DNA of 39,845 bases. Origin: Bacteroidota bacterium (GTDB taxonomy: Bacteria > Bacteroidota > Bacteroidia > Bacteroidales > JAAUTT01). The position numbers were made by a program, and so were the translations under genes. Under the pieces are notes generated by a model that made no database searches, was not told where the DNA came from, and worked only from the letters and a program-made list of their open reading frames with translations. The stretch covers positions 1 to 39,845 of the forward strand of contig JAJYAG010000044.1 in the NCBI GenBank assembly GCA_021779665.1, in the 5' to 3' direction. Shown piece after piece: positions 3,795 through 35,762 of this stretch (position 1 is its first letter; the number at the start of each line of letters is the position of its first letter).

Positions 3795-6065
3795 ATGAGA
3801 AACTTCAAACATCTGACTACCCGAATTACCTGGATACTGGCATGCATTGTGGTACTTGCCTTTAACTCATGCTCAAAGGCGTCCAAAGGAGCCAAACAGA
3901 GCGACGATGTTCAAACCTATACCGACGTTCCTTTTATCCAGGAATATCACGATGGTTACATAATAAGCAGTAATCCCAAAGATAACGATGTTCGAAGCAT
4001 TGCCCTCGATAATCAGTCCAATGTTTGGATTGCCACTGCTTCGGGGATATTTATGAAAAAAGCCGGCGACCGCAACTGGGAACCTGTTATCTCGGGCGAA
4101 GATCGTGGTCCGGCGTATTCAGTCCTGACAAAACCCGATGGAACGGTACTTCTGGGTACATGGAATGGTTTGTATTCCTTCTTAAATAACGAGTTGAAAA
4201 AGGAAGAAGGTCCGAAACCTCCTGTTTCGGCGATCTGCTCGAAGGATGATGAAGTTTATGCGCTGGGACCAAATGGCGTCTGGCAGCTTGTGGATGGCAA
4301 ATGGAACCAGCTTAATTACAATATTGCCCGTTCGGTGAGAAGTGCCGTTACAGACGGCAAAGGCAGTCTGTGGGTGGGTACCGATGCCGGTATCTTTTTG
4401 TGCAGGGATGGAAAAACAAAACTTTATCAGAATACTAATGAATTGATTAGCGCCTATGTAAGGGCTATCGGATTCGCTCCCGGCGGCGAGTGCTGGGTGG
4501 GTACCATGGGTGGTATTGCTGTCCGCAAGGATGAAAAGCTTCAGAAAAAAATCACTCCTGCCGAAGGTCTCTCCAATGCTTTTGTCACCTGTATTGAACC
4601 ATCGCCCGACGGAACCATGTGGGTAGGTACTGAACTTGGTGTTGTCCGTTTTGACAAGGATTTCAAGCCATCGTTGCGTTTTAGCCGCAGATGGCTGATG
4701 GGCGACCATGTGAAGGATATCGCGTTCGATAGCGATGGCAATGCCTGGATTGCAACAACGGGCGGTGTGAGTGCCATTAAACGCAAATCGATGACACTGG
4801 CCGGTAAAGAGCAGGATTTTTACCGTCAGCTGATGTACAGGCATATCCGCGAGCCCTGGACATGCAGCAGCGTTCATCTGCGTATTCCGGGCGACACAGC
4901 ATCGTGGGAGCCGGAAGATGATGACAACGACGGCGAATATACCGGAGGATATCTGGCAATGGAAAGCTTCCGTTATGCCGCTACCGGCTCCGAAGATGCT
5001 CATGCGAAAGCCCGCAAGGCTTTCGACTTTCTGCGTAAGCTTCAGACCGTGACCGGAACCCAGGGATTTTTTGCCCGTTCCATTGTACCTGTCAGCTGGA
5101 CAAAAGTACACGACCTGAACAGGAAGTATACCCCGCAGGATCTTGCCGAAGAACTCGTAAAGGATCCGCGTTATAAACCTGTGGAAGAGCGCTGGCGAAA
5201 AGCCGACGATGGTATCTGGCTATGGAAAGGTGACACCAGCACCGACGAGATGGATGGCCATTTTATGAGCTATTTCTATTTTTATGAATATGCTGCTAAT
5301 GAGGAAGAGAAGCAGATGATCCGCGATCACGTTACGAAAATTCTCGATGAAGTGATCCGCAATGATTACAACCTCGTGGATATCGACGGAACTCACACCC
5401 ACTGGGCTGTCTGGTCGCCAAAACTTTTGAATGGCGATCCCGACTGGGCTGCGGAAAAGAGCCTTAACTCATTTGAAATGCTGGCTTATCTTAAGTTTGC
5501 CTACGGTATCACCAAAAACGAGAAATATCAGAAGGAGTACCTCCGGCTGATCAATGAGGAAGGATATCTCGAGAATGCCAAAGGCCTCAATTATAAAAAT
5601 CCTGCATGGCAGATTTATTTCGACAGAACGCTGGAGGGATATACCTTTCCGATGTTGTTCAGGTACGAAACCGATCCGAAGTTTAAAAAGGTCTACAGCG
5701 AAATGCTCGAAAAATGGATGGAAGATCAGCCTTATGGCGAAAATCTCATTAACAACATGGCTTACACACTTTGTACCGGACGCAAAATCAATGTGCAGCA
5801 AACCATCGATTTTTTGAAGGATGCACCGCTCGACCTTGTGGAGTGGAATATTGATCACACGCTGCGTGAGGATGTTAAACTTGTACGAAGTCCCATTCTT
5901 GAAGATATTCAGATTGATCAGCTTCCGCCGGCAAGCATGAGGGCTACCGTGAGGTGGGATAAAAACCCGTGGGATGCCCGTCAGGGAAATACTTCATCCA
6001 TGAGAGAGCCTGTTTTCTGGCTATGGCCTTACTGGGAAGCCAGGTATCTCGGTATTATCAAATAA
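3795..6065 (+). CDS. lipoprotein: N-terminal beta-propeller plus unassigned C-terminal helical domain
   Basis: A 756-residue lipoprotein (signal peptide ending FNSC, Cys26). Residues ~55-335 contain about six two-component-regulator-propeller-like blades, each with a WVGT/WIAT-type strand (WIATASG, LLGTWNG, WVGTDAG, WVGTMGG, WVGTELG, WIATTGG). In hybrid sensors such blades bind glycans, but no kinase follows here. Residues ~340-756 are helical and aromatic-rich (YTGGYLAMESFRYAATG, DEMDGHFMSYFYFYEYA, GTHTHWAVWSP, NPAWQIYFDRTLEGYTFPM). This looks like an (alpha/alpha) toroid as in many glycosidases and lyases, but I cannot place it in a known family. Conserved-looking acidic and His residues (DEMDGH, DGTHTHW) could form an active site. 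It starts 10 bp after GH92, so it belongs to the glycan operon. The propeller call is solid; an enzymatic role is inference. Confidence 0.8.
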   Translation: MRNFKHLTTRITWILACIVVLAFNSCSKASKGAKQSDDVQTYTDVPFIQEYHDGYIISSNPKDNDVRSIALDNQSNVWIATASGIFMKKAGDRNWEPVISGEDRGPAYSVLTKPDGTVLLGTWNGLYSFLNNELKKEEGPKPPVSAICSKDDEVYALGPNGVWQLVDGKWNQLNYNIARSVRSAVTDGKGSLWVGTDAGIFLCRDGKTKLYQNTNELISAYVRAIGFAPGGECWVGTMGGIAVRKDEKLQKKITPAEGLSNAFVTCIEPSPDGTMWVGTELGVVRFDKDFKPSLRFSRRWLMGDHVKDIAFDSDGNAWIATTGGVSAIKRKSMTLAGKEQDFYRQLMYRHIREPWTCSSVHLRIPGDTASWEPEDDDNDGEYTGGYLAMESFRYAATGSEDAHAKARKAFDFLRKLQTVTGTQGFFARSIVPVSWTKVHDLNRKYTPQDLAEELVKDPRYKPVEERWRKADDGIWLWKGDTSTDEMDGHFMSYFYFYEYAANEEEKQMIRDHVTKILDEVIRNDYNLVDIDGTHTHWAVWSPKLLNGDPDWAAEKSLNSFEMLAYLKFAYGITKNEKYQKEYLRLINEEGYLENAKGLNYKNPAWQIYFDRTLEGYTFPMLFRYETDPKFKKVYSEMLEKWMEDQPYGENLINNMAYTLCTGRKINVQQTIDFLKDAPLDLVEWNIDHTLREDVKLVRSPILEDIQIDQLPPASMRATVRWDKNPWDARQGNTSSMREPVFWLWPYWEARYLGIIK

Positions 6066-7343: not shown

Positions 7344-7952
7344 ATGAAAAAACTAACTAAAAACCTGGTAGGAATAAACCTGTTATTATGCTGTTTATTT
7401 TTGTTTTTCGGATGTAGTTTAATTGACAAATCTTCGTCCGATGATAATTATGGGTATAAATACTGGACCGGCTCTATTCCTAATTCTTATTATCTCCTGA
7501 ATATTTACGGGGACAGAGGGCTTAAAATAACCGGAAAACCTTTTATGGTAGTTAAATACGATAAGGTTTCCCTGAAGATATTGGATTGTGAATTTGGTTT
7601 AAGCGAAGTAACACAAACAGGGATACCCACCGCTCATGGTCTGGCTGTTGCTCCCCAACCTACAGTTGATGCGGCTACCATTGATTATAAGGATAAATTG
7701 GGATTGAAATCTCCTGTCGATCTTCTTGTGTCGTGGAATATAATGGGTTTTGCTACCAAATCGGATATTACCAATGGCGTTCAAAATTTCTCTTTCAAAA
7801 GAGGCTCATCTCCCGGCGGAGTAGGTTATAATGAAGAATGGTACTTCTCATACACCAATAATACAATGGTAGGAGGAGTAAAAAATATAGATCTCAAATA
7901 TTATATGGGTGGCGATTCGGACAACAATGCCTTTAATTTAATTCCGAAGTAA
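7344..7952 (+). CDS. small lipoprotein of unknown function
   Basis: About 202 residues from the ATG at 7344. The frame is open back to 7260, but that would start inside the 7244-7280 hairpin, and the 7344 start gives a clear lipoprotein signal (MKKLTKNLV..., hydrophobic core LLLCCLFLFF, Cys24). The mature part is beta-rich and Gly/Asn/Tyr-rich (SYYLLNIYGDRG, KYYMGGDSDNNAFNLIPK), compatible with a small beta-sandwich exposed at the envelope. I do not recognise a family. It is convergent with the split phospholipase-D gene and separated from the upstream operon by the hairpin, so it is probably a single-gene unit. Confidence 0.75.
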   Translation: MKKLTKNLVGINLLLCCLFLFFGCSLIDKSSSDDNYGYKYWTGSIPNSYYLLNIYGDRGLKITGKPFMVVKYDKVSLKILDCEFGLSEVTQTGIPTAHGLAVAPQPTVDAATIDYKDKLGLKSPVDLLVSWNIMGFATKSDITNGVQNFSFKRGSSPGGVGYNEEWYFSYTNNTMVGGVKNIDLKYYMGGDSDNNAFNLIPK

Positions 7953-33954: not shown

Positions 33955-35142
33955 ATGCCTGATGGAAGATTATTTTCTTTGCACTATGAATTAAAAGTAC
34001 TTGACGAGCTTGTGCTTGATAAGATGAATCCAGAACGTGATCCAATGGATAATATTGATTCTTTAATGGGTTTCGAAAGTGTTGCCAAAGCTCAAAAAGA
34101 ATTAATTAAAAAAAAGCTAGTATGTACCGCTTATTCCCTTTCTGATGAAAGAATTACTATTACATACATACATAATCACCAAGCTAGTTTGAGTCATTTG
34201 ATTGAAGTACTCTTTAATTATTCCAATGATGAAAAATTAAAAAAATATACAGAATATCAAATAGTCATTAACCAGATAATAAATCACCTAGTTGACTTAA
34301 TGATCTTCTTGGCTGAAACATTCAGGAATTACTTCAATTATGATGCAGAATCAACAATTTCATTTAAAGGAACTGCTTCAGCACATTTTAGAGGACAATT
34401 GATGAAATTCCATCCTAGAAATTCATGCAAATTTCAGACTATACTTGATATTGCATTAGAACCAATTATAGAGTTTACCACAAATCCGTTAGTGAAGTCG
34501 ACGACTTTTAGGAAATTGATGTATTTTGATAATTTGATTAAATCTCTATTATTGATATATGACTCTGAAATATTTGATCCACAAAAAATTAAAATTCTTT
34601 TAATCGAATTAAACTTTAATTCTAATCATTTTTTTTGGTACATTATTAATGAAATTGAGTTAGAGATTTTATCTTTTTCAGGAGATACAGAGAAGATTGA
34701 AAAACTTTCCTGGTATTTGAAACAAGTTAATCAAATTCAAATGAGAAAAGATTTGATTTTTGAGCCCAAGCAAGAATCTATTAAAGAAAAAATAATCAAT
34801 TGGTTACTTGAAGAAATTTGCTTTCTTGAGAAAAGTATCAAAAAAGAATTTTTAGAAATAAGAAATGAAGAAAAGTATGGGAGTTTTAAATTAACTACTA
34901 ACTTATCGGTACCGGTCTATGGCCTTTTACTTCATTTATTGTTTGAGTGTGATGTTTATGAAAGGCATCAACTTGCTCAATCATTGAGGTTCTTTGCCAA
35001 TCACACTAAAACAAAAAATGTAAATGAGATTGCAGAGGAAAGTTTAAGACAAAAATATTACAAACACGAACAAAGTGTTAAGGACAAAGTCAAAGCACTA
35101 ATAATTAAAATGCTAAAAAAATTAAATGAGGATTTTGATTAA
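33955..35142 (+). CDS. RteC-like mobile-element regulator
   Basis: 395 residues. The C-terminal ~110 residues match RteC (PF09357) features: FKLTTNLSVPVYGLLLHLLFECDVYE (a winged-helix-like pattern with T-x-LSV), then IAEESLRQKYY and KVKALIIKMLKKLNEDF. The long N-terminal part is helical without known motifs. RteC in CTnDOT activates excision genes under RteA/RteB control. No rteAB-like two-component genes are in this window. Its TAA shares the TTAA at 35139-35142 with the opposite-strand alpha-CTD-like gene. It lies between the sugar cluster and the replication genes. Confidence 0.68.
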   Translation: MPDGRLFSLHYELKVLDELVLDKMNPERDPMDNIDSLMGFESVAKAQKELIKKKLVCTAYSLSDERITITYIHNHQASLSHLIEVLFNYSNDEKLKKYTEYQIVINQIINHLVDLMIFLAETFRNYFNYDAESTISFKGTASAHFRGQLMKFHPRNSCKFQTILDIALEPIIEFTTNPLVKSTTFRKLMYFDNLIKSLLLIYDSEIFDPQKIKILLIELNFNSNHFFWYIINEIELEILSFSGDTEKIEKLSWYLKQVNQIQMRKDLIFEPKQESIKEKIINWLLEEICFLEKSIKKEFLEIRNEEKYGSFKLTTNLSVPVYGLLLHLLFECDVYERHQLAQSLRFFANHTKTKNVNEIAEESLRQKYYKHEQSVKDKVKALIIKMLKKLNEDFD

Positions 35143-35363
35143 ACGTCAGACAACATAGATTCAAGTTTATAAAACTTCAGTATTGTTATCAGTTCTTCCA
35201 AGACATGATAATTAAAGTAAGGTAGCTTAAGTAAATGATTTGAAGAAAAACTTGTTATTTCGTATAAATTTCTGAAGTTATTCATACGTACCATTTCTTC
35301 GAATTCTTTACTTAATGCAAAATCGCTAATTGGTCTTAGTAAGATTGAATCTTTATCTACCAT
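35139..35363 (-). CDS. RNA polymerase alpha-CTD-like micro-protein
   Basis: 74 residues. The pattern ISDFALSKEFEEMVRMNNFRNLYEITSFSSNHLLKLPYFNYHVLEELITILKFYKLESML matches the alpha C-terminal domain of RNA polymerase: a helix with L-S-x-R/E-x..N, an interrupted helix then L-L-x-L-P/R-x-F and a final x-E-L-x-x-L-x-x. Alone, such a domain could bind UP-like DNA or contact activators. It is convergent with the RteC-like gene and overlaps its stop codon. Family assignment is by pattern only; it could also be another HhH-type protein. Confidence 0.6.
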   Translation of the reverse strand: MVDKDSILLRPISDFALSKEFEEMVRMNNFRNLYEITSFSSNHLLKLPYFNYHVLEELITILKFYKLESMLSDV

Positions 35364-35762
35364 TATTGTGGAAGTTAGCTATAGTACAAAAAAAATAGCG
35401 TGGGTTATCAATTCCCAGCCACAGAGGTACCGCCAAGCACCCACAGCACTGATGAACTGAGCCCACGCATAGCGTGAGCGACCAGTCTATTTCCGAGTGC
35501 TGTTGAAAATTTGGCGGTTTTCTGTGGCTCAGTTATAGCTTTCGCTACTTATATTTAATTAAATAATGTTCAAATCAATACAAATATAAGCAATTACATC
35601 TAATGCTTATTGGATTTTAGCCTTATACTAGTTCTGAATAACAAATTAAAAATTTAAATTACTTATAATAAGGTAATTATAGGAGGGTTACATGACCCTT
35701 GTGACTGGAATTTATTCTATAATCTATTTTGTTTTGTAATGAATTAATTTAAACCTATCATC
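35364..35762. other. gap containing a structured inverted-repeat element
   Basis: 399 bp. Positions 35377-35540 are an unusually GC-rich nested inverted repeat (separate entry); the rest is A/T-rich. A small palindrome AGGGT-tacatg-ACCCT lies at 35684-35699, 63 bp before the HTH gene. Confidence 0.5.
35377..35540. repeat. nested inverted-repeat element or structured RNA
   Basis: Four nested pairings share one centre: AGCTATA 35377-35383 with 35534-35540; GCCACAG 35418-35424 with CTGTGGC 35522-35528; ACCGCCAA 35429-35436 with TTGGCGGT 35511-35518; ACAGCACT 35443-35450 with AGTGCTGT 35496-35503. At the top is the hairpin CACGC/GCGTG (35464-35468 with 35472-35476). CCCACGC (35462-35468) can instead pair with GCGTGGG (35398-35404). 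The element is far richer in GC than its surroundings. It may be an ncRNA, a mobile miniature element with terminal repeats, or a recombination/transfer site. Confidence 0.6.

Follow-up and report, generated by a model that had tools for sequence, protein, structure and literature searches.

What is a long nested inverted repeat doing in the genome of a Bacteroidota bacterium, and does it act as RNA or as DNA? The window, by which we mean the whole stretch of 39,845 nucleotides analysed here (contig JAJYAG010000044.1), contains such a repeat, which the original prediction had placed at 35377-35540 and described as richer in GC than its flanks and capable of two alternative folds. The options offered for it were an untranslated regulatory RNA, a transfer or replication origin, a part of a retro-element and a miniature mobile repeat. 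The nested repeat is present, and on both strands it folds better than all 200 shuffled sequences (plus strand, 35360-35560: −74.6 kcal/mol, z −6.95; minus strand, 35364-35575: −72.0 kcal/mol, z −5.54; 0/200 shuffles as good in either case). Its GC content is indeed raised, at 0.48 (35380-35539) compared with 0.26-0.36 in 160-base windows clear of the element. The coordinates shift slightly, as the conserved unit, defined by its covariance-model match (130.2 bits), spans 35391-35553 and is read as a leader RNA on the minus strand, the strand being assigned from an asymmetry between G-U and A-C pairs. Judging from its relatives, the element is apparently one copy of an undescribed, switch-like leader RNA family found in many Bacteroidota.

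DNA similarity searches identified matches in 5 of 60 genomes, the host genome included, as well as one weak match to an archaeal plasmid and none to a phage record. The relatives have the tip GCCCACGC-NTN-GCGTGAGC in common, and the long stem varies on both sides of it. Scanning 295 genomes of the order for this tip pattern yielded 15 places, 12 of which were relatives on inspection (the window among them); the pattern also occurred in 73 viral stretches. The viral relatives recognised on inspection comprise two distinct sequences, L041 and L082, with repeats of one sequence counted once; a scan of viral contigs found no relatives of the 266-aa ORF. Two short matches on host contig C90, which had suggested an element with an insert, fall inside ORFs and were dismissed as chance.

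We built a covariance model, R1, on an alignment of 15 sequences picked by eye from the DNA and pattern matches. At E ≤ 0.001, R1 matched 59 of the 149 genomes searched from the order, a count that includes the own and seed genomes; across the phylum, 25 of 247 genomes matched at E ≤ 1e-4 (own genome included, 11 candidates scored each). All six named genomes that were preselected for a conserved 5′ pattern also matched, with 1 to 5 copies each. This 5′ pattern occurs in at least 120 stretches of genome contigs, and 112 of the 119 searched loci from the 5′-pattern scan were matched by R1. Carriers matched by R1 include Draconibacterium orientale, Alistipes sp. dk3624, Dysgonomonas, Sunxiuqinia, Mariniphaga and Pedobacter jejuensis. 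The search for multiple copies that had been proposed gave a divided answer: the host genome has a single copy (by DNA similarity and by the covariance model, with 150 candidates scored), and other genomes have several, up to at least 19 in one of them, where the best 19 candidates were scored per genome. Two copies, L176 and L227, are located on contigs labelled as Heliobacteriaceae and Sulfurospirillaceae MAGs; it seems likely that these contigs are misbinned Bacteroidota.

For the comparative analyses, reverse-strand echoes and truncated or weak matches (L148:5440, L114:1533, L202, L250 and the second matches in L213 and L218) were omitted, as were L200, L214, L248 and L275, which are copies of records already included. 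Dropping near copies and units with fewer than 58 nt downstream reduced 183 units to 146. Eighty of these 146 copies were found through the exact 5′ pattern, which suppresses variation in one of the hairpins described below (H1), and results for the other 66 are therefore also reported separately. Rfam searches of the window and of 22 other loci gave no match that covers the element, and a literature search found no description of this leader RNA. Two other studies report thousands of microbiome RNA candidates, including palindromic ones from Bacteroidetes near phage genes (PMC8040213), and structured 5′ UTRs in Flavobacterium psychrophilum (PMC9723704).

A MAFFT alignment of the 146 copies, which was not fitted to any structure, revealed three long-range helices with strong covariation that together form a rod. 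On the minus strand of the window, helix A pairs GCCACAGA (35521-35528) with UCUGUGGC (35418-35425), helix B pairs CCGCCAA (35511-35517) with UUGGCGG (35430-35436), and helix C pairs CAGCAC (35497-35502) with the region CAGUGCUG (35444-35451). The rod is capped by an apical core hairpin, GCUCACGC-UAU-GCGUGGGC (35461-35479). Across the alignment, 94.3% of the cells in helix A are paired with 370 double changes, 97.5% in helix B with 452 and 82.9% in helix C with 295, compared with 0.49, 0.41 and 0.47, respectively, for the best slid controls. All seven pairs of helix B are complete in 133 of the 146 copies, which have 54 different left strands. The 80 pattern-found copies have paired shares of 0.954 (A), 0.971 (B) and 0.888 (C). 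Since the 5′ pattern lies outside these three helices and the same pairing is found in those 80 copies, the rod was not created by structure-based selection of sequences. The terminal stem AGCGT/ACGCT built into R1 proved to be just one option among several (P0, a small 5′ hairpin and H1 stem 1). By eye, UAUAGCU after the U-run in the window is complementary to AGCUAUA at the 5′ end of the leader (35377-35384 and 35534-35541); this further, possible pairing corresponds to the outer arms described in the original prediction.

The element can also fold as two separate hairpins. The first, H1 (AGCGA...UCGCU, 35477-35546, minus strand), has the left strand of helix B as its loop. The second, H2 (GCGUGGG...CCCACGC, 35398-35468, minus strand), is terminator-like, has the right strand of helix B as its loop and is followed by a U-run (UAUUUUUUUU, 35388-35397, minus strand). 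The 5′ arm of H2 is the 3′ arm of the apical hairpin of the rod, so that CCCACGC ahead of the U-run pairs with the GCGUGGG of that hairpin, again with covariation. This is the switch of CCCACGC to an upstream GCGTGGG that had been proposed from the single sequence, and all seven pairs are complementary in 113 of 134 scoreable members.

The two hairpins go together in constrained folding. When the 5′ helix UUAUUCUUG/CAAGAGUAA was enforced, the H2 stem formed in 108 of 131 copies (92 of 131 when the U-run is included), and when H2 was enforced, the 5′ helix formed in 110 of 146. Each half is also stable alone relative to dinucleotide shuffles, the median z being −3.10 (left half, with 114 of 146 copies below −2) and −3.89 (right half, with 140 of 146 below −2); the corresponding values for the window are −1.97 and −2.80. 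Double changes exceed all 200 shuffles in six of seven stem segments in the 146 copies, in a comparison in which the shuffles ignore relatedness. H2 stem 3 is weak, its value being reached by 5 of 200 shuffles in the full set and by 79 of 200 in the 66 non-pattern copies, where H2 stem 2a is reached by one of 200. Because the bases themselves are conserved, the paired share is only slightly above that of shuffled alignments (e.g., 0.916 versus 0.902). The bases that are conserved yet unpaired in the rod are paired in the two-hairpin state, GAAA with UUUC in H1 and GGUA with UACC in H2, and thus need not represent a ligand pocket. The rod and the two-hairpin fold are mutually exclusive, and both are conserved across the 146 copies, with covariation for each in copies from other Bacteroidota, as the original prediction of two alternative folds had asked of them.

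Which strand is used can be read from wobble pairs. In the minus-strand sense, six helices contain 522 G-U cells versus 82 A-C cells. Wherever one strand has a G-U pair, the opposite strand has an A-C mismatch, and the imbalance therefore suggests selection on the minus-strand RNA. Helix A, the core, the 5′ helix and the terminator stem account for the excess, with about half of the G-U count in the core due to one conserved U-G position, and helices B (8 versus 8) and C (27 versus 22) are without asymmetry. The switch partners noted earlier thus remain, but it is on the minus strand that they are informative: there, GCGUGGG comes first, CCCACGC leads into the U-run, and a promoter box belongs to the element. 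This box, TAnnTTTG, which we take to be the Bacteroidota −7 box, is present at most 120 nt upstream in 119 of the 146 non-redundant copies (94 of 121 in an earlier set), compared with 12.2 on average and at most 20 in 200 mononucleotide shuffles, and with 18 for the reversed box. In the window it reads TATATTTG (35581-35588, minus strand) and ends 27 nt ahead of the element. On the other side, a U-run (at least five U in eight) follows the element in 132 of 146 copies, versus 30 of 584 control windows. The copies tend towards a common order on the minus strand of the window: first a TAnnTTTG box, then the element and a U-run, and in many cases an ORF. Between box and element, 32 of 94 box-carrying units have a start codon followed by a stop within two codons (e.g., ATGACATAA; units such as L158, L160 and L150), an uncontrolled count.

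We then looked at what lies downstream. An ORF of at least 100 aa starts within 350 nt in the RNA sense in 77 of the 146 copies; the remaining 69 are without one, for which contig borders, shorter ORFs or a lack of ORFs may account. Fifty-six of these 77 adjacent ORFs have an exported-like start, versus 158 of 530 other ORFs in the same loci (Fisher p 9.5e-13), by a simple hydrophobic-stretch test rather than a trained predictor. Start codons cluster, with 28 of the 77 located 43-57 nt after the element. Pfam searches with 74 downstream ORFs, the window ORF included, returned 71 families, of which the type IX secretion sorting domain (seven ORFs) and Fib_succ_major (four) were the commonest, and SprB, BACON, laminin-G-like and leucine-rich-repeat families were found in two ORFs each. 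No single common pathway emerges from these 74 ORFs, 71 families and a commonest family in seven; export is the only trait that the downstream genes have in common. The six copies in L180, L189, L191, L223, L230 and L235 are followed by small ORFs that belong to a single family, which has a CPF-type cysteine motif.

The ORF that follows the element in the window (35139-35363, minus strand) is an exception to the export trend. It encodes 74 aa without a signal-like start, begins 27 nt after the leader and has no curated Pfam or NCBIfam match; homologues occupy the same place in two other genomes, G041 and G037. On the plus strand, 33955-35142 encodes a 395-aa protein with homologues beside the same element in G041 and G037. 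Two gene labels given to this neighbourhood found little support: RteC for 33955-35142 is unsupported in Pfam or NCBIfam, and an alpha-CTD in the small ORF is backed by just a sub-threshold match in one homologue (E 0.072).

Among the options named at the start, an untranslated regulatory RNA is the one favoured by the promoter box, the strand-specific wobble pairs, the two folds, the U-run and the ORF bias. The accompanying idea of action in trans, as for RteR, fares less well, since the element reads as a cis leader of the minus-strand ORF at 35139-35363. A stand-alone small RNA that ends at the U-run and acts in trans, with the downstream ORFs as mere neighbours, would agree with a promoter and a terminator-like end that together delimit an RNA of about 165-220 nt. 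It would also agree with nine copies elsewhere in the phylum (L298-L306) that conform less closely to the leader layout: a long ORF follows within 60 nt in only two of them, and three lack any ORF of 50 aa within 330 nt. However, neither the bias towards exported-protein ORFs nor their clustered spacing is expected for a trans-acting RNA, and we regard this explanation as unlikely.

The copies occupy many genomic contexts, and some form same-direction arrays. In L166, a 348-bp stretch of promoter box and leader occurs twice (4290-4637 and 7402-7748), 96% identical and 3.1 kb apart; the duplicates precede two different ORFs, and their identity ends exactly at the U-run. In L163 and L162, tandem units of leader and gene have leaders that are 95% identical over about 520 and 580 bp, which suggests amplification of whole leader-gene units. 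The copies in the window, G041 and G037 adjoin related genes, and an ORF upstream in G037 matches a Pfam phage integrase. The ORFs of G041 and of a second G037 copy look alike by eye. An ORF beside another copy (L109:1180-1854) presumably encodes an IS200-type (RAYT-like) transposase.

These observations bear on whether the element is instead a miniature mobile repeat or an attC-like cassette recombination site that folds as DNA. The L166 duplicate, with different genes after the point where identity stops, speaks for a mobile repeat, and so do the many copies per genome in some carriers and the same-direction arrays. Integron attC sites, which were considered because of the arrays, are likewise imperfect hairpins next to ORFs, sometimes in arrays, and they end in RYYYAAC and GTTRRRY boxes. 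Such boxes were not seen by eye at the ends of the element, which, unlike attC, has a conserved tip, a promoter box and a U-run, and attC was set aside for the missing end boxes. The single copy in the host genome argues against a mobile repeat, and the wobble asymmetry, the promoter box and the ORF bias argue against both versions, leaving folding as DNA a very unlikely explanation. The varied contexts, the L166 duplicate and the related neighbours indicate that the unit may spread, whereas the wobble asymmetry and the ORF bias argue for an RNA function; the one does not preclude the other.

A transfer or replication origin of the adjoining mobile element would be in keeping with the position of the element in both the window and G041, where it lies just upstream of an HTH_17 gene and of an operon that looks replication-like. 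Yet most inspected copies lie elsewhere, in many contexts without such an operon, and Pfam named no relaxase among nine neighbouring ORFs (four of the nine were without any match), so that we assign the origin next to no probability. The same nine ORFs, with the same four lacking a match, include none named by Pfam as a reverse transcriptase, and the suggested retro-element finds no support there.

We propose that the element is probably a cis-acting, bistable 5′-leader RNA, that is, a transcription attenuator, on the minus strand. Transcription would start near the TAnnTTTG box, and the left half of the leader would fold on itself as H1. With H1 formed, the right half would fold as H2, a GC-based hairpin followed by the U-run, and transcription would stop. 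If H1 were opened or did not form, the left half would pair with the right half through helices A, B and C, and the resulting rod would tie up both arms of H2, allowing the polymerase to read on into the ORF. As each hairpin loop corresponds to one strand of helix B, a kissing contact between the loops may start the exchange. The promoter box, the strand, both folds, the U-run and the ORF association follow from the sequence statistics given above; from these we infer that H2 terminates transcription in the cell, that the rod corresponds to read-through and that the balance is determined by an event involving a ligand, a protein or the ribosome.

Folding calculations place limits on this mechanism. 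In simulations of the growing RNA, the left half alone formed the 5′ helix of H1 in 100 of 146 copies, a number that fell to 2 of 146 as soon as helix B was possible. Unconstrained folding favours the rod: H2 appears in only 6 of the 146 minimum-energy structures, and forming the two-hairpin state comes at a cost of about 14 kcal/mol; for the window element, the rod was computed at −69.4 kcal/mol and H1 plus H2, with the terminator enforced, at −52.7 kcal/mol. Considering that H2 is rare in free folds and comes at this cost, stopping must be kinetic or aided by a factor.

Alternatively, the leader might act on translation or mRNA stability instead of termination, the U-run being merely part of the fold. 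A GUCCC/GGGAC hairpin encloses the U-run in many copies (score 14.4 versus 10.3 shuffled, means of n = 66, mean empirical p 0.18), and as this later hairpin is common, translation may be affected. In addition, a 5′ A-run can pair with the U-run (P0, in 99 of 146 folds), and the clustering of start codons at a set distance past the element fits such a role. Against this, H2 and the U-run are conserved in the form of an intrinsic terminator, and the window is without the GGGAC partner. Control of translation or stability therefore appears fairly unlikely, and the attenuator remains our preferred reading.

Compared with known systems, the attenuator-like leader resembles attenuators and riboswitch expression platforms in being promoter-proximal, in having two exclusive folds and in ending one of them with a GC-based hairpin and a U-run. 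It differs in that the whole leader is selected for both folds, with two loop-complementary hairpins on one side and one rod on the other, and in that riboswitches control genes of a shared pathway, which the downstream genes of this family do not form. UpxY/NusG-type antitermination acts at Bacteroides capsule leaders and is likewise a control of surface genes by leader read-through in Bacteroidota, to the extent that read-through of the present leader can be inferred. RteR is a small RNA of CTnDOT and, compared by description, has in common with the element the idea of a regulatory RNA in a Bacteroidota mobile element; here, however, the leader faces a minus-strand ORF, and the family extends well outside mobile elements. 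Structured RNAs of the same phylum also include Flavo-1 and other Rfam motifs (PMC2864571, PMC9723704), but no Rfam match covers the element. We would class the family as new, its leaders being of a familiar, attenuator-like type but built in an unusual way from two hairpins and a rod.

A broader possibility, which we put forward tentatively, is that these leaders form a phylum-wide, new class of signal-responsive RNA switch controlling exported and surface proteins of Bacteroidota, in which loop-complementary hairpins (stop) would exchange with a rod (go). Few cis-regulatory RNAs are generally known in Bacteroidota, though these bacteria are dominant in the gut and many other environments. 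If the proposal is true, the family would provide one common handle on the choice of surface and secreted proteins in Bacteroidota. It would also provide a clear example from nature of one RNA apparently under selection for two structures at once, an example that is directly testable by compensatory mutation.
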